DNA of 63,283 bases from an uncultured bacterium (GTDB lineage Bacteria; Patescibacteriota; Gracilibacteria; Absconditabacterales; Absconditicoccaceae): assembly GCA_937872535.1 (NCBI GenBank), contig CALMTC010000008.1:1-63283 (forward strand), given 5' to 3'. The notes under the pieces were generated by a model. That model made no database searches and was not told the DNA's origin. It worked only from the letters and a program-made list of their open reading frames with translations. Shown piece after piece: positions 9,943 to 63,158 of this stretch. A program made the translations under genes and the position numbers. How positions within the stretch are numbered: position 1 is the first letter of the stretch; every line of letters begins with the position of its first letter.

Positions 9943-10713
9943 CTATCTCTTATATGGTACATTACCAACAGAGGAAAAAAATGCATTCAGTTCATTAAGA
10001 ACTTGTTGAAAAGTTTTTTCTGTCGTGTTTCCAGCTTCGATTGCTGTAAACAGGACAAACACAGGTCTAATAATGTTTTTCTCTAATTCTGATGTCCCTG
10101 GAAATAATTCGTTTGTTAGTTGGAATAAATCCGTCGCGATCCCCTTTTCTTTGTATAAAGGAATAGCTTTTTTCATAAATTCGTCATACCGCTTACCAAA
10201 TACTTGCTTGATATAGTTTCTTTCGACCATATAAGCTTCGAGTTCACTCTGTGCTTCACTTAGTCCGCTCAATTGAGTTGTATGAAATAACTCATGGAGA
10301 AACACGGCTCTTGCAATGGTGTCGTTTTTCACCATAGGTATTACTACCATTGGTATCCCGTAGGGCCCATTGTTTGTAGAACTTGCTATGGACTTTTGTT
10401 TTCCAGTTGCCATATTATTAGTAGCCTGTTCAAGGTCTGTGATGACAAGTGTGAATCTTGCGTGAGAATCTGGCATTAAAACACGACATGTACCGACTTG
10501 TTCCTTAGGTTGGAATTGAATAGCGATATGGCAATTTTGTCCTTGGCTTATGCGCTGGGCATACTCCAATACTGATTTATCCATTTCGATAGATGAAATT
10601 GGTGCTTCTTTTTCCCTTTCTTCTACCTGATTTACTTTCTTGACTTTTTTACATGAAGTAAAAGTCAAAAAAATAACAAATGCGAGTGTCAAAAATATTT
10701 GTATCTTTTTCAT
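9943..10713 (-). CDS. Lipoprotein with HExxH zinc-protease motif
   Basis: A 256-residue lipoprotein. The signal peptide ends in TFTSC with the lipid Cys at residue 21. FLHELFHTT at about 138-146 carries the HExxH zinc-binding motif, and Glu residues in SEAQSELEAYMVE shortly downstream could be the third ligand. It resembles gene 62136 (HELCH) in layout and probably acts at the outer face of the membrane. It stops at TAG and has no internal TGA. It has its own TTGACT-16 bp-TATTAT promoter and its own terminator. The protease function is motif-based; no catalytic data or named family is claimed. Confidence 0.6.
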   Translation of the reverse strand: MKKIQIFLTLAFVIFLTFTSCKKVKKVNQVEEREKEAPISSIEMDKSVLEYAQRISQGQNCHIAIQFQPKEQVGTCRVLMPDSHARFTLVITDLEQATNNMATGKQKSIASSTNNGPYGIPMVVIPMVKNDTIARAVFLHELFHTTQLSGLSEAQSELEAYMVERNYIKQVFGKRYDEFMKKAIPLYKEKGIATDLFQLTNELFPGTSELEKNIIRPVFVLFTAIEAGNTTEKTFQQVLNELNAFFSSVGNVPYKR

Positions 10714-14087: not shown

Positions 14088-14624
14088 TTATGAAATTTTA
14101 ACCAGTCCGATATAAGTACTGGTATTTTTGATAAGAAAATATCCATTGTTTAGATATTTTATCAAATCATATTCCACCGGGAGGGTGATTTCTCCCAGAT
14201 GGTCAATAAGACCATAAAGATCATTGTTTTTTACGATGAAAACTTCTGGGAGTTCAGTAGTTTCAATACTATCAAACCCATTATTATGAAGATACTTGTT
14301 TGAAACTAGATCAAATAGTACCCATTTGGCTGGTGTTTGGAAAGCAAAGAGATTCTCTTGGAGAAATTTCATATTATTGGCTTTTACACCCTTTTCTATG
14401 AAATTTTTATCCAATAATTGGTAAGTTTCATTCTTTTTTACCTTGAAAAAATAATTTCCAAGATAAGAAATAAAGTCATACTTATCAAACGGGACTACTA
14501 TTTCTGGGCAGCCCTCCTTATCCTGAAGAATAGCTTGTTTACCACTTTTTTCCAAGAGAAAAATACCTTGGTAAACTTCAGTAATGTCGGAATATTCGCA
14601 TGCAGCGATTTCTTTTAGTTCCAT
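14088..14624 (-). CDS. Unknown protein, WG-repeat-like
   Basis: A 178-residue soluble protein. It shows loosely repeated units such as SGKQAILQDKEG...VVPFDKYDFI and NNDLYGLIDHLGEITLPVEYDLI, the pattern of WG (KWG-like) beta-repeats: 'x-x-G-L-I-D..G.I..P..YD.I'. The function of such proteins is usually unknown. There is no signal peptide. It is TGA-free and ends in TAA. It has its own TTGACT-N16-TATAAT promoter and terminator, so it is monocistronic. I cannot assign a role. Confidence 0.55.
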   Translation of the reverse strand: MELKEIAACEYSDITEVYQGIFLLEKSGKQAILQDKEGCPEIVVPFDKYDFISYLGNYFFKVKKNETYQLLDKNFIEKGVKANNMKFLQENLFAFQTPAKWVLFDLVSNKYLHNNGFDSIETTELPEVFIVKNNDLYGLIDHLGEITLPVEYDLIKYLNNGYFLIKNTSTYIGLVKIS

Positions 14625-17864: not shown

Positions 17865-18617
17865 ATGACTCGATTAAATACACTTTTAGCGGTCGGGCTC
17901 GTCAGCTTAATTTCATTTATCTGAGCTGCCGTCCTGCGAATCAAAGCGAAAAAACTAAGTCACATAGCACCGTTCCTCGTCAGCTTAGCAGCTGGAGCAT
18001 TGTTTGGAGATGTGTTTTTTCATATGATTCCAGAGCTTGTAGAAGAGTATGGCTGGCCATTATGGGTCTCTGGTGTGGTACTTTTGGGAATTATTTTCCA
18101 CTTTATGGTCGAAAAATATATCCATCGAAGACATTGCCATGTTCCAGTTTCAACTCATCATGTTCACAGTTTTGCTTGGATGAATCTTGTTTGAGATTTT
18201 ATACACAATTTCATTGATGGGCTGATTATAGCTGCTAGTTTCATCATTTCACCAGCTGTTTGACGAGCTACGACTATAGCAGTAGTTCTTCACGAGATAC
18301 CTCAAGAAATTGCTGACTTTTGAGTACTCATTCATGGCTGATTCTCAGCAAAAAAAGCCCTCATGCTCAATTTTTTGACAGCTCTGTGAGCTGTACTAGG
18401 TGCTATTATAGGTCTCTCTCTTGGCGAAGCTAATGAAATGATGCACTGAGTACTTGTTGCTTTTGCTATCGGTGGCTTTCTCTATATCGCAGGCTCAGAT
18501 CTCCTCCCCGAAATTCACAAAGAAACCCATCCTACTCGCTCTGCTTTCCAGCTTTCTATCTTTATTCTCGGTATTGTTCTCATGGTTTTTCTTACTTTTT
18601 TAGAAACGTCTCACTAA
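17865..18617 (+). CDS. ZIP-family metal transporter
   Basis: A 250-residue membrane protein with about eight helices. A cytoplasmic His-rich loop (HRRHCHVPVSTHHVHS) precedes helix IV, which carries HNFIDGLIIAA. Helix V has VLHEIPQEIADFGVLIH. These are the HN..DG and HE.P.E.GD motifs that form the binuclear metal site of ZIP transporters. They move Zn2+, Fe2+ or Mn2+ into the cytoplasm. Several helix glycines are TGA. It starts 30 bases after the zinc-ribbon gene and probably forms one transcript with it, ending at the terminator at 18874. Confidence 0.88.
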
Positions 18618-18841: not shown

Positions 18842-18873
18842 AAAATTTTCTCTCTGCTTAAAAAACTTCTTGA

Positions 18874-18902
18874 TAGAGAGCTTATTTAGCTCTCTATTTT
18901 TT
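18874..18902 (+). terminator. Intrinsic terminator after the ZIP transcript
   Basis: TAGAGAGCT (18874-18882) pairs with AGCTCTCTA (18888-18896) and is followed by TTTTTT. Confidence 0.88.
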
Positions 18903-18942
18903 AGTAAAGTATGAAAATAGTGTATTGGAAGAAATTTAAAAT

Positions 18943-18972
18943 AAAAAAAACCCGTCCCCCAAAAGAGAACGG
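18943..18972 (-). terminator. Intrinsic terminator of the SulP gene
   Basis: On the minus strand CCGTTCTC-TTTT..-GGGGACGG forms an eight-pair stem with two G-U pairs (18952-18959 with 18965-18972), followed by eight U's. It starts six bases beyond the TGA stop of the SulP gene. Confidence 0.8.
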
Positions 18973-18978
18973 ATAAGA

Positions 18979-21210
18979 TCATTTTATAATTTCAATAATT
19001 TCTTTTACCAGTTGTATAACTGCTGGCAAATCTTCTGAATCCTCTCGGACTTTTTTTCTAATTATTAAAACTTTATTTTCTGATGATTCCATATAATGAA
19101 TTCTGTAGGCAGAAAATTTTTTTAATAATTTTGCATCATCGTTTCTAAATAAAGCAACACAATCGGCCTCCTCATAACTTTTTAGCAGATAATGGTTCGA
19201 ATAAGCTTTATAGTCTTCAAAGTTTATATCGGTATTATCTAAAATATCAGCTATGGTTTCTGGGCTTTGGATAAATTGCGGGATTTTTTTGTCGCCAAAA
19301 TCTATGATCGCCACTGAATACTTCATCTTTCTAAAGCCAAGGCTAGAGAACCTAGCGCTACTTACATCGCAGATTGAAACTTTGATGCCATCAATAAATC
19401 CTTCAAGAATATTTTTAACTTGATTGTCACCAAGATAAAAAAATTTGAAAGGTGTTACCAATGTGTTATTGAGTTTTATACCTTTTTCAAATTGAAAACC
19501 ATATAAAGCTCCAATTTCCTGCAAGACTATTTGTCTTTCATTTGCTAGGATAGATAAACCTTTTTTTGATGGGATATCTCCTCTCGAAGATAATGGATGT
19601 TTTGAAAAGGGTTGTAGATTATCTATGCCTTCGATAGTCAATTTTCCACCACTCACAGCAAATTTTCTTCTAAACTCTTGCAAGTTTTTAAGACTATCAG
19701 AATCAATATATCTCAACTTCTCTAAATTCAGAGTTATCTCATTCTTAAGATGATCATCCAGAAGTTGTTTGATTTTCTGGAAATTGAATATAGTTAAGTT
19801 TGATATTATGAAACTAAAAGTTTTATGGTCAGAAATTGTTTCTATGAAGTTATTTTTTCCTATTTTGAATAACTGTATTGGCTGTATTGTCTGGCCTTTT
19901 TCAAATCTCATGATATTTCTGTATTGTCCAATCCAATAAGCAAATAGTCCAATAAGTACTCCAATGAGTAAATCAGTAAAAATAATTCCAAAAACAGTTA
20001 TCAGCATCACAATTTCTTCAGTTTGCCCAAGTCTAGCAGTAGGAATATTTTTTTTGATCATAGAATATCCAGTATATACCAATATTGCAGACAAAGCTAC
20101 ATTTGGTATAAGAACTAAATAGTTCATAAAGCTTAAAATAAGGACTGCCAAACATATAGCATGGAAAAAATTAACTTTTTGAGTCTTTGCTCCTTCATGG
20201 ACTCCATTATGACTTCTTACTATCTCGTTGATAACGGGAAGTCCTCCAAGAAATCCAATAAGCACATTAGAAACACCATTTCCAAAAATATCAGCGTTCA
20301 TGTTTCTTTGCCTTTTCTGTGGGTCCTCAGACTGTATTGCGGAAGAAGTTACTAAACTTTCGATTGTAGAAACTCCGAAACAGATAATGGTTGAGCTAAT
20401 TCCATGAAATGTTATTAACATATCAAAACTAGCACTTGAGAACCATTTTGATTGGTCTGTAGATATTGAAATAGTTGGTATTTCATCAGTGCGGAGACCA
20501 AATGGGATCAGTATTGCTATGACTAAAACAATGAGTGATGGTGGAACTAATTGTAATATTTTTTTATCTGAATAACTAGACAAAAAAAATATTGAAATTA
20601 AACATATTAGTCCAGCAAGCACTACTAATGATGGTTCAAATTTATTTAACTCGTCAAAAAAATTAAATAAGATTTCTTTTGGTTCAACATACGAAGGTTT
20701 TATTCCTAATATTTTAAAGCCTTGTGTTAAAATCAAAATGCCACCAATAGAACATTTTAAACCTGCAATCACAGGGGATGGAAAAAAATTTCCAAACCAT
20801 CCTAAATTAATAGGATAACCTGAGATTTTTAAATTTAAAGCAGAAAATAATGAAAATGTGATTTGTAATGCACCAGAAATGACAAAAACACCAAGAGTAT
20901 TTCGCATTCCAAGTACAACTTTATCAGATTCAATCATATTTTCTGGAGTCATTGCATAGAACCCATGCAATATAAACAATACAATCGGGATCATTCCAGC
21001 AGCTGGACCAGTGATGACTAAATCAGTTCCTTGCCACAAACGATACATGATAAACATGACGATACCGCTTATTACAGCGCTAATGAGACCAGCCATTGGA
21101 GGAAACCCAGAGGCTGTAGAGACTCCTAAACACAGCGGTAAAGCTATGAATAGACCAATTTTAAAGCCAGCTTGCATATCATAAGCAAGTTCAGCAATTT
21201 TTTTTTTCAT
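18979..21210 (-). CDS. SulP-family anion transporter with STAS domain
   Basis: A 743-residue transporter. Residues about 15-425 form the SulP core: GLFIALPLCLGVSTASGFPPMAGL opens the first repeat, DLVITGPAAGMIPIV is the family signature, and NMNADIFGNGVSNVLIGFLGGLPV the second (usual form: ..ElxaQGxxNxxxGxxGgxPxtg). A STAS domain follows (about 440-545) and then a C-terminal region of about 150 residues that I do not recognise. The family moves sulfate, bicarbonate or other anions. None of the roughly 53 glycines is TGA, and the first in-frame stop is TGA at 18979-18981, directly before the terminator. With code 25 there would be 24 extra codons past the U-run to a TAA at 18901. Strong sign of standard-code origin. 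Confidence 0.88.
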   Translation of the reverse strand: MKKKIAELAYDMQAGFKIGLFIALPLCLGVSTASGFPPMAGLISAVISGIVMFIMYRLWQGTDLVITGPAAGMIPIVLFILHGFYAMTPENMIESDKVVLGMRNTLGVFVISGALQITFSLFSALNLKISGYPINLGWFGNFFPSPVIAGLKCSIGGILILTQGFKILGIKPSYVEPKEILFNFFDELNKFEPSLVVLAGLICLISIFFLSSYSDKKILQLVPPSLIVLVIAILIPFGLRTDEIPTISISTDQSKWFSSASFDMLITFHGISSTIICFGVSTIESLVTSSAIQSEDPQKRQRNMNADIFGNGVSNVLIGFLGGLPVINEIVRSHNGVHEGAKTQKVNFFHAICLAVLILSFMNYLVLIPNVALSAILVYTGYSMIKKNIPTARLGQTEEIVMLITVFGIIFTDLLIGVLIGLFAYWIGQYRNIMRFEKGQTIQPIQLFKIGKNNFIETISDHKTFSFIISNLTIFNFQKIKQLLDDHLKNEITLNLEKLRYIDSDSLKNLQEFRRKFAVSGGKLTIEGIDNLQPFSKHPLSSRGDIPSKKGLSILANERQIVLQEIGALYGFQFEKGIKLNNTLVTPFKFFYLGDNQVKNILEGFIDGIKVSICDVSSARFSSLGFRKMKYSVAIIDFGDKKIPQFIQSPETIADILDNTDINFEDYKAYSNHYLLKSYEEADCVALFRNDDAKLLKKFSAYRIHYMESSENKVLIIRKKVREDSEDLPAVIQLVKEIIEIIK

Positions 21211-21252
21211 ATGAGACTTTTTTTTATTTTAATGATCGTTTAATCAAAAAGT

Positions 21253-21280
21253 ATAATGATTATTACTAGAAAAAAGTCAA
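21253..21280 (-). promoter_or_regulatory. Sigma-70 promoter, shared TTGACT-N16 design
   Basis: TTGACT (21275-21280), 16 bases, CATTAT (21253-21258) on the minus strand; 43 bases before the SulP ATG. TATACT three bases further is an alternative -10. Confidence 0.65.
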
Positions 21281-21495: not shown

Positions 21496-22032
21496 TTATT
21501 TTTTAGTTGTATCGCAACCATAAACTACATAGAGGAAAACTTTGTAGTAAAGAATCTGGAGAATATAACTTCGGATGATAGTCATCGCAAGAGCTATTCA
21601 GATTTTTTTAGCAACCATAAGAGTTTTTTCTCACATAGTTTTAGTCATTTTTTCAGTTGTCATCATAGCACAACCAGAACCATCACAGCTACCAGACATC
21701 ATAGTGCACCCAGACATTTCCGAACAAGCCATTCCAGAGTGATTTGCCATCATTGTATCCATTTTACCACTCATTATCATAGTTTTCATCTCTTCTTTCA
21801 TCATTCCTCTATCGTCTCTCATCATAGAATGCATCATTTTACCATCCATTTTCATCATCATCCCATACTCTCCACGACCAAATCTATGACCTCTTCCTCA
21901 CAGAGTAGAGAAAAAAGTACAAAGAAGACAAAGCGTAAACAAAACTACAGCTAATCTATGCCATCGCATAGTCGACAAATTGTGAGTGTCTTTCTGAGCA
22001 AAAGGAAAGAAAAAGTTACAAAGAGCTTTCAT
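21496..22032 (-). CDS. Met/Cys-rich secreted or membrane protein, candidate metal binder
   Basis: A 178-residue protein. The N-terminus has a hydrophobic segment (about residues 28-46, RLAVVLFTLCLLCTFF) that could be a signal anchor. Residues about 60-135 are extremely Met-rich (runs MMMKMDGKMMHSMM and GMMKEEMKTMIM), with Cys/His pairs (GMACSEMSGC, GSCDGSGCAMM). Such clusters bind Cu(I) or Ag(I) in CopA, PcoE/CusF-like and Ctr-type proteins. A C-terminal region KIGIALAMTIIRSYIL may be a second membrane helix. TGA encodes Gly in STLGGRG, TMGEKT and KKIGIA. It lies between the SulP and ABC-exporter genes. No family name is claimed. Confidence 0.6.
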
Positions 22033-37108: not shown

Positions 37109-37864
37109 CTATACATTTTCACAACAAAATCCTCAGAATTTAGTTATTTTTCTCACAAAAAATGGAGAAGTAATAATATAAACTCCGGAGCTTAATTCTT
37201 TGAGTTCATTCTCTCCGACACACAGAGATTTGATAAATTCTCCTGTGAGGGAGAAAAGTTTCATTTCCAGCTTTTCCTGTCCTTCGTACTCGATTGTAAG
37301 CCGATCAGTAAAAGGGTTTGGATAGAACTGGATTTTTTTGTTGCCCTGATCTTCTTCAAGACCAGTCTGGATACAAAGACTAAAAACCGAGCTAGACTGG
37401 TCACAGTTCAATGAAATAAACGGACTGAGAGTCCACATTTTTTCAAAACAAGTGATGTCAGTAGCAGTCTTGCTCGTAGCTACCAAGCTACCGAGCTCAA
37501 TAGCTGAGAACTGATGAGTCGCTTTCAGATAACCAGTCAACTTAAACGGATAGTCCATAGGAGCTGGTCCGTTAAAGCTAGACTGAAACAAGAATTCCAG
37601 TGTATCACTGATAGAAGTTGGTAAAGAAACTACTCTTGCATTACTGATAGTCAGTACGACAGAGTCAAAGTTTGTTACCAGTTCATAAGCTGTCAAAATC
37701 TGATCATTTTTTTTGATTTTGACTTTCAGACCCTCGATCATTAGCCCTTGAGAGGACTTGATCTTTAGCTGTTGACAGCTTTTGATAAGTTCCACAGTCT
37801 GCTGGGCAGAGACATTGCTGGTGCTTACCAGTAGGCAGACTAAAAGAATGATAATTTTTTCCAT
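37109..37864 (-). CDS. Secreted protein with T9SS-like C-terminal sorting domain
   Basis: A secreted protein. MEKIIILLVCLLVSTSNVSA is a signal peptide; this ATG (37864) is chosen because a start 11 codons upstream lies inside the -10 box. The last 65 or so residues read IQFYPNPFTDRLTIEYEG, MKLFSLTGEFIKSL and LSSGVYIIT. That is the 'YPNPf.d.l.i......i.l.s..G..v.......s.G.Y.i' pattern of type IX secretion C-terminal domains in Bacteroidota. The body is unrecognised. There is no internal TGA for 243 codons. The first stop is TGA at 37133-37135; with code 25 it extends eight codons to TAG at 37109-37111. Confidence 0.62.
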
Positions 37865-37894
37865 TTTTATATTTTTTTTATATGACCAACTTTG

Positions 37895-37922
37895 CATATA
37901 AGGGAAAAAATAGAAAAGTCAA
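37895..37922 (-). promoter_or_regulatory. Sigma-70 promoter, shared TTGACT-N16 design
   Basis: TTGACT (37917-37922), 16 bases, TATATG (37895-37900), 31 bases before the chosen ATG at 37864. Confidence 0.75.
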
Positions 37923-62135: not shown

Positions 62136-63158
62136 CTAGATACCAAAGTTTGATGAGATCTTTGTATAAACTTTTTTCAAGTTTTCTACATCATCTTTTC
62201 CTTCAGCTTCAAAAGCTACTGCAATTACACAAGAAGCCATAATGAGTGCTTCTTCTTGATAAGATAGATTATGCTTTTTTATATATATGCTATAAATAAG
62301 CATTTGTAGCTTCTGAAAATTTTTTTTGTTATAATATGCTATGCCTTCTTGAAGAAGATAGGCATAGGCTTTGGGATTGAGACTTTTGACCAATTCCATT
62401 TCAAGGAGGTGAGCATTGACTTCACCCATGAGATATTGATTGAGGTCATTCCAGTCCTCTCCATCGTACTTCATGTCATAGACATGGCAAAGTTCATGAG
62501 CCAAAATAATCCCAAGCCATTCTTTACTAGCAAACGAAGTAGCAATCCGAATAGTTTTACCACCAGGTTCAGTTATGACAGGAGATCTCATTTTTTCATG
62601 TTTTTCTGGCATATAAACTACTTCAAAAAGAGTAGTGTCACGCATAATTCTATTCAATTCAGCAGAATCTTTGCTCACGAAAGTAGTGATAGTTTGATTG
62701 ACAGGTATACTGTAAAAAGCCTTATCTTGAAGCATTGTAATATGCTTCGCTACTTTAGGATGCCATTCAAACATTTTGAGAGATTCGATAGAAATCTTCT
62801 CCCAGTACTTTTGTTGTGCGACCATACAGTCGATTCGTTCAGTAGAATTCTTGTAGGCACAGTCAAATTTTTTGATTTCAGTAGTAGTATCGATAAAAGT
62901 TGGTTCTACTTTAAAGATTTTCTTTACCACTATAAACCCAAAAATACAGGACACAATGACAATAATACTAACTCTAAAAATAAAAGTGAATAGGTGTGCC
63001 TTAGCTAATTCTTTAGACTCCTTGATTCGAGAAGAGAAGTTCTCTTTCATTTTTTTGGTGCCATTTTTTTCTTCAAGAGTTCTGACTTTTATCAGCTCTA
63101 TACTTCTTTTTTTGAGTGGACTCATCCACCATTGAAACATTTTCTGAATTTTACTCAT
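62136..63158 (-). CDS. Membrane-anchored protein with HExxH metalloprotease motif
   Basis: A 340-residue protein. One membrane helix at about 57-79 (FTFIFRVSIIVIVSCIFGFIVV) leaves a large outer domain. GIILAHELCHVYDMKYDG holds HExxH (His221, Glu222, His225), and Glu246 in MGEVNAHLLEM could be the third ligand. It resembles gene 9943 in layout, and both could be exported peptidases of one family. No TGA is present in 340 codons; it stops at TAG. It has a TTGACT-N16-TATTCT promoter and a terminator, as other TGA-free genes. Confidence 0.65.
   Translation of the reverse strand: MSKIQKMFQWWMSPLKKRSIELIKVRTLEEKNGTKKMKENFSSRIKESKELAKAHLFTFIFRVSIIVIVSCIFGFIVVKKIFKVEPTFIDTTTEIKKFDCAYKNSTERIDCMVAQQKYWEKISIESLKMFEWHPKVAKHITMLQDKAFYSIPVNQTITTFVSKDSAELNRIMRDTTLFEVVYMPEKHEKMRSPVITEPGGKTIRIATSFASKEWLGIILAHELCHVYDMKYDGEDWNDLNQYLMGEVNAHLLEMELVKSLNPKAYAYLLQEGIAYYNKKNFQKLQMLIYSIYIKKHNLSYQEEALIMASCVIAVAFEAEGKDDVENLKKVYTKISSNFGI

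Follow-up and report, generated by a model that had tools for sequence, protein, structure and literature searches.

A TGA-ended SulP-family transporter gene and a UGA-avoiding gene class in a bacterium that reads UGA as glycine

Results

The SulP locus

The window, that is, the whole stretch of DNA analysed here (63,283 b), is contig C8 of a 1.25 Mb genome assembled in 23 contigs, which is 98.8% complete with an estimated contamination of 4.0%. It encodes a SulP-family anion transporter located between two native genes, both of which contain in-frame TGA codons and lie about 300 bp away on either side (Table 1). The SulP gene starts with an ATG at 21210 and runs for 743 codons up to a TGA. 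The terminator behind it consists of a stem (18974-18950, 11 pairs, loop of 3) followed by eight T residues (18950-18943), and its 56-nt strand folds at -16.5 kcal/mol compared with -7.5 +/- 2.2 kcal/mol for shuffled versions (z -4.2; equalled in 0 of 200 shuffles). As the original prediction stated, this TGA is the sole stop of the gene before the terminator; no TAA or TAG is found in frame between it and the U-run, the first being the TAA at 18901-18903. Translation in code 25 up to that TAA gives a product of 769 instead of 743 aa, thus an extension longer than the 24 codons claimed originally. None of the 53 Gly codons before the final TGA is itself TGA (P = 4e-4 from a zero-truncated beta-binomial fit that includes gene-to-gene variation). 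Repeats bordering the gene were considered and rejected as AT-rich chance matches.

Table 1 Features of the SulP locus and TGA-free frames in the window
Feature	Position	Strand	Remarks
TGA-free class member, lipoprotein-type signal peptide	225-1373	plus	TGA 0/29 Gly; TAA stop
TGA-free class member, lipoprotein-type N-terminus (TSCKK)	9943-10713	minus	TGA 0/11 Gly; TTGACTTT promoter
TGA-free frame	14088-14624	minus	TGA 0/10 Gly; TTGACTTT/TATAAT promoter
ZIP transporter, native neighbor of SulP	17865-18617	plus	TGA 7/22 Gly
Second hairpin, terminator of convergent plus-strand gene	18872-18898	plus	
Code-25 extension of SulP to first in-frame TAA	18901-18978	minus	26 residues, G744-Y769
Intrinsic terminator	18943-18974	minus	4 nt past TGA
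TGA	18979-18981	minus	Stop in standard code; Gly744 if read in own cell
SulP-family anion transporter gene	18979-21210	minus	743 aa; PF00916, weak STAS and C-terminal domain; ends in TGA
Sigma70-type promoter of SulP	21250-21280	minus	TTGACT 21280-21275, spacer 19, TATACT 21255-21250; TTGACTTT type
178-aa native neighbor of SulP	21496-22032	minus	TGA 3/17 Gly
TGA-free class member, signal peptide ...SAQ, T9SS sorting domain	37109-37897	minus	TGA 37133-37135, TAG 8 codons on, then hairpin
TGA-free frame	62136-63158	minus	TGA 0/10 Gly; TTGACTTT promoter

Genetic code and release factors

The genome uses the table-25 code (UGA=Gly) of Gracilibacteria and Absconditabacteria. The genome sample used here consists of stretches totalling 789 kb or ~63% of the genome; in its 424 genes with a product of 200 aa or more, TGA accounts for 4232 of the 12,323 Gly codons (34%). 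The tRNA-UCA was labelled SeC by ARAGORN and is Gly-like by alignment, with global alignment scores of 43 and 39 against two tRNA-Gly and 29 against tRNA-Trp. A release-factor domain is present in only two proteins of the genome, namely RF1 and an ArfB-like factor (80 bits, below its own curated cut-off of 100). The original prediction had proposed a check for prfB or RF2-like genes and for tmRNA: RF2 was not found in the genome by the release-factor domain search, tmRNA was. The GGQ rescue factor of ArfB type (L002:1486-1896, C5) thus occurs alongside tmRNA in an RF2-less genome. With this set of factors, ribosomes of its own cell would be expected to run into a non-stop end or an extension of the SulP product; without RF2, that cell is unable to use the SulP UGA stop by any known route.

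The TGA-rich native genes, the presence of RF1 without RF2 and the Gly-like tRNA-UCA all agree with the code of Gracilibacteria (BD1-5) and Absconditabacteria (SR1), NCBI table 25, and prfB has been reported absent from BD1-5 genomes (PMC6851277). Extreme use of the recoded codon was seen in a native gene of one relative (G034:C14, L292:12054-16457), where TGA occupies 119 of 135 Gly positions. In contrast to the code as it is known, a set of genes on the chromosomes of these same genomes does without UGA for Gly, and some of its members have UGA at their end. SulP differs from native table-25 genes on both counts, as these have TGA at about a third of their Gly codons and end in TAA or TAG before a terminator. 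A second, native SulP is encoded in the same genome (G000:C7:47784-48989) with 4 TGA within the matched stretch.

SulP is a divergent family member

SulP matches Sulfate_transp (PF00916) with 115.9 bits against a cut-off of 23.2, but reaches only 104 bits against NCBIfam sulP (TIGR00815, cut-off 380); its STAS domain scores 19.8 bits, slightly below the cut-off of 22.6. Based on these profiles, it is a divergent member of the wider SulP family only. All full-length relatives come from Bacteroidota (Persicobacter, Chryseotalea, Cytophagaceae and a Bacteroidia MAG) and are 726-751 aa long. SulP resembles these long transporters in length and in its C-terminal domain, but is only ~30% identical to them and falls outside or basal to the group on a very long branch (4.5 changes per site), making the placement unsure. 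As the C-termini of the relatives align with residue 743, the TGA marks the expected end of the protein.

No orthologue above 33% identity was found in 147 relatives and 380 genomes of the phylum, and no close donor in a scan of 85,000 species, where the best matches had ~30-33% identity. Scanning genome contigs with an alignment retrieved distant relatives only, and SulP alone as query retrieved none. Viral contigs contained no relative, and plasmids and phages carry SulP proteins only at <60% identity. Leaving TGA aside, the codon usage of SulP is recipient-like, being nearer the native mean than that of ~90% of native genes; it is also native-like when compared with low-GC Bacteroidota genes, a small reference of 12 genes. 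The share of TTA among Leu codons is 41% in SulP vs 17% in native genes. Codon usage and the long branch together would fit long residence better than recent arrival.

TGA-free, TGA-ended frames across the genome

In the genome sample, terminators were located and the frames preceding them collected: 102 end in TAA or TAG, and 12 have TGA as their nearest stop, none of the latter with a TAA or TAG before the U-run. Eight of these 12, including SulP, lack internal TGA, and in all eight clear cases the TGA sits 4-18 nt ahead of the hairpin. Among frames before strong terminators, 8 TGA-free ones end in TGA and 30 in TAA/TAG, as opposed to 2 and 53 of those with internal TGA (p=0.014 for the table). 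UGA ends are thus associated with UGA-free bodies, and TGA-rich native genes end in TAA/TAG; dual decoding in the own cell, one of the two explanations offered originally, is not supported. Likewise, the arrangement at SulP had been regarded as rare in a recoded genome, yet at least seven other TGA-free frames share the TGA-plus-terminator end. It is a property of a class, a point missed at the time.

Two further members of this group are rich in Gly. A CPA2-type Na/H antiporter (L157:2759-3985; C11:102759-103985) is TGA-free with 45 Gly codons and ends in a TGA 5 nt before its terminator, its Pfam domain ending at residue 403 of 408; this gene also has the top Leu-TTA share among the sampled genes. 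A long ThyX-like protein (L159:5280-6755; C11:195280-196755) has 31 Gly codons, no internal TGA and a TGA end before a terminator. In several other genomes of family f1, ThyX holds 10-21 TGA, and in G046 just one. The remaining five frames are Gly-poor, with 0 TGA among 29 pooled Gly codons.

Leaving aside the TGA-ended genes, the sample contains 8 genes that have 14 or more Gly codons and no TGA at all, vs 1.8 expected. The TGA-free genes ending in TAA/TAG include T9SS-tailed, lipoprotein-type and outer-membrane-like proteins, PPDK and FolD. The pyruvate phosphate dikinase (L167:12845-15538, C2) has 77 Gly codons and zero TGA and is of imported or native origin. Similar genes were noticed in relatives, namely a UPF0182 membrane protein (L283:10680-13709, G014:C4; 1009 aa, TGA 0/57 Gly) that directly follows a T9SS-tailed gene and has a TTGACTTT promoter, and TGA-free frames with PyrF- and PyrE-like N-termini near a T9SS-tailed gene (L295:1537-3200 region, G031:C9). 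Together with ThyX and FolD, the latter suggest that nucleotide-supply genes are found within the class. Phages were rejected as a source of the TGA-free cluster genes, since the only matches were to Ig-like and Hoc-like repeats.

T9SS-tailed genes in related genomes

The T9SS sorting domain (TIGR04183) was found in 25 of 59 relatives, mostly of the same family f1 as the present genome and including single-contig genomes, and all matches except one lie in TGA-free frames. About 50 T9SS-tailed genes of f1 genomes contain 0 TGA among 2081 Gly codons in their bodies. The 52 matches that could be read through end in TAA (37), TAG (9) or TGA (6); among the TGA cases, the one at L267 is internal to the sole TGA-bearing match, L281 belongs to G054, a genome of another family, and the gene at 37109-37897 of the window reaches a TAG eight codons on. 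An end like that of SulP, where no further stop separates the TGA from the hairpin and U-run, was found at L237 (this genome), L257 and L258. Either code can therefore be used to read most of the T9SS-tailed genes; for a few, only the standard code will do. In Bacteroidota loci, TGA accounts for 27 of 106 stops (25%).

By a crude rule, 41 of 53 class genes carry a Sec-type signal peptide vs 125 of 480 native genes, and many of the class signal peptides are cut before Gln. Bacteroidota signal peptides are usually cut before Gln as well. With the T9SS cargo of Bacteroidota (Por_Secre_tail, TIGR04183/PF18962), the tailed proteins share a Sec signal peptide often followed by Gln, Ig_7/PKD repeats and the C-terminal sorting domain. 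In contrast to that cargo, they occur in genomes without detected SprA: this T9SS core component was found in three Bacteroidota controls but not in 40 genomes of the group. None of the papers searched links T9SS to Gracilibacteria or CPR. SulP, a membrane transporter, has no T9SS tail, and only part of the TGA-free class has one.

Synteny and silent turnover of Gly codons

Comparison of species pairs over 20-kb stretches showed that TGA-free genes occupy matching positions, with orthologous TGA-rich genes on either side. In G034/G017, a 1140-aa gene with TGA at 0 of 76 Gly codons lies beside genes with TGA at 29/37, 14/14 and 119/135; the orthologues are 30% identical and the flanking genes 56-82%. 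Three TGA-free genes in succession are shared by G012/G022 at 54-67% identity, and further TGA-free orthologues are ~38% identical in G026/G035/G018 and 68% identical in G014/G033. At 284 conserved Gly positions, the class pairs show 178 silent GGN changes and 0 TGA. Flanking native genes have TGA in both species at 91 and in one species at 191 of 427 Gly positions. Silent divergence elsewhere is similar in the two sets (0.63 and 0.55). Synteny combined with silent Gly turnover that never introduces TGA shows that UGA has long been selected against in the T9SS-tailed members, for which recent import therefore fails as an explanation. One escape remains, namely separate import of related genes to the same site in each species, which seems unlikely.

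Promoters and transfer machinery

The class promoter has the sigma70-type form TTGACTTT-N16-19-TATAAT. It precedes 18 of 53 class genes vs 21 of 480 native genes. Within this genome, the figures are 5 of 8 for the class and 15 of 250 for native genes that have an upstream gap (p=8e-5). Sigma70-type TTGACTTT promoters also precede some TGA-rich native genes. Bacteroidota-type promoters show no enrichment (0 of 53 class genes), which counts against transcription inside a Bacteroidota cell; the promoters would agree better with transcription by the bacterium itself or by a non-Bacteroidota host that bears a T9SS. A coupling-protein search found a TraG-like ATPase domain in every genome searched, standard-code ones included, which does not discriminate, and it yielded no route of delivery.

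Discussion

The class described here is characterized by avoidance of UGA, mostly Bacteroidota-type export signals, often a TTGACTTT/TATAAT promoter, an end in TAA, TAG or TGA and an intrinsic terminator. SulP shares with it the TGA-free body, the single-gene layout closed by a terminator, the TTGACTTT promoter and the affinity to Bacteroidota. Its putative membership is based on these shared features, as the relatives searched yielded no SulP orthologue. Our main reading, to which we assign a probability of about 50%, is that SulP is a standard-code gene belonging to a maintained UGA-avoiding class in a UGA=Gly genome, with TGA as its stop. Whichever its origin, a maintained class or import, the best reading of TGA 18979-18981 is that of a genuine SulP stop.

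The class never gains TGA, and therefore something beyond translation in the own cell constrains its genes. The simplest single reason would be a standard-code cell with a T9SS, as the T9SS tails in genomes without detected SprA, the Bacteroidota-style signal peptides and the exclusion of UGA all point to such a cell. Class genes may avoid UGA because their products would be made by standard-code ribosomes, most likely those of a partner or prey cell equipped with type IX secretion. The RF2 of this partner would stop at the UGA of SulP, and the transporter would serve the partner cell. Read in its own cell, SulP would yield a non-stop or extended product left to tmRNA or the ArfB-like factor. 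We tentatively hypothesize, at somewhat less than even odds, that these UGA=Gly bacteria keep standard-code genes for expression by a T9SS-bearing partner, which would be remodelled by the products (surface proteins, SulP-type transporters and nucleotide-metabolism enzymes). It should be noted that TGA avoidance may have one cause in SulP and another in the T9SS genes.

For SulP alone, recent import is a serious rival, possible though somewhat doubtful. An unsampled donor using the standard code would have passed on the gene together with its terminator, and there would not yet have been time to replace the TGA. The mRNA would be non-stop or read to the TAA at 18901, and rescue would fall to tmRNA or the ArfB-like factor, both of which are at hand. 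A gene that is TGA-free, TGA-ended and lacking an orthologue above 33% identity in relatives and phylum is what such an event would leave, and TGA-ended imports are to be expected given the share of TGA among stops of Bacteroidota loci. Against it stand the lack of any donor nearer than ~30% identity among 85,000 species, the branch of 4.5 changes per site, the recipient-like codon usage and the long residence of T9SS-tailed genes with the same features. The recent acquisition proposed originally may hold for SulP and is contradicted for the T9SS-tailed members by synteny and turnover.

Explanations confined to the own cell are far less probable. If class genes were very strongly expressed there, selection for fast or accurate translation might purge TGA, and the final TGA would be Gly; the strong -35 elements of class promoters would agree with this, and EF-Tu (L177:12456-13784, C11), with TGA at only 1 of 39 Gly codons, indicates that strong expression can lower TGA use. 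However, ribosomal proteins, DnaK and RpoB do carry TGA (L2 9/37, DnaK 12/45, RpoB 31/90), the EF-Tu rate predicts ~53 TGA among the 2081 Gly codons in which 0 were seen, and TGA ends at a homologous C-terminus as well as T9SS tails without a T9SS would be left unexplained, making this reading quite improbable. Even less credible is a context-dependent stop, where UGA near the transcript end would release the protein via ArfB or tmRNA and terminators would act as stops. The short distance between TGA and hairpin in all eight clear cases and the existence of both rescue systems would agree with it, but where TGA-rich native genes precede a strong terminator, the end is TAA/TAG in 53 cases vs 2, and the absence of internal TGA is not accounted for. 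An assembly or binning artefact joining a foreign standard-code gene into the contig is the most improbable of all, even with an estimated contamination of 4%: TGA-containing genes flank SulP on both sides, and the class recurs at syntenic places in many separate assemblies, single-contig genomes included, by which an artefact is largely excluded.

Avoidance of in-frame TGA has also been described for code-11-compatible phages of Gracilibacteria and Absconditabacteria, proposed to be for use in standard-code hosts too (PMC10746230). Those are whole genomes mostly with other stops, whereas the class consists of single chromosomal genes located beside TGA-rich genes, some TGA-ended and with T9SS tails. 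For Vampirococcus, it has been suggested that reading through the UGA stops of foreign genes gives protection against such genes (PMC8080830).

In a recoded genome, the new sense codon is expected to spread through the genes. The class never takes it up, across diverged species and beside genes that do. The T-DNA genes of Agrobacterium are carried by one organism and written for expression in another, and the same is proposed for the class, which differs in being known from genes alone and in having promoters that are not of recipient type for Bacteroidota. If true, a partner-remodelling class would play a part in bacteria comparable to that of T-DNA or phage auxiliary genes. Should translation in a partner be the reason, the genetic code would tell apart those genes of an uncultured parasite that work inside the host, name the kind of host (T9SS-bearing) and single out direct candidates for the delivery of genes from cell to cell. 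Were SulP itself no more than a recent import, it would still show, together with the genes like it, that gene uptake is not strictly barred by the loss of a UGA stop.
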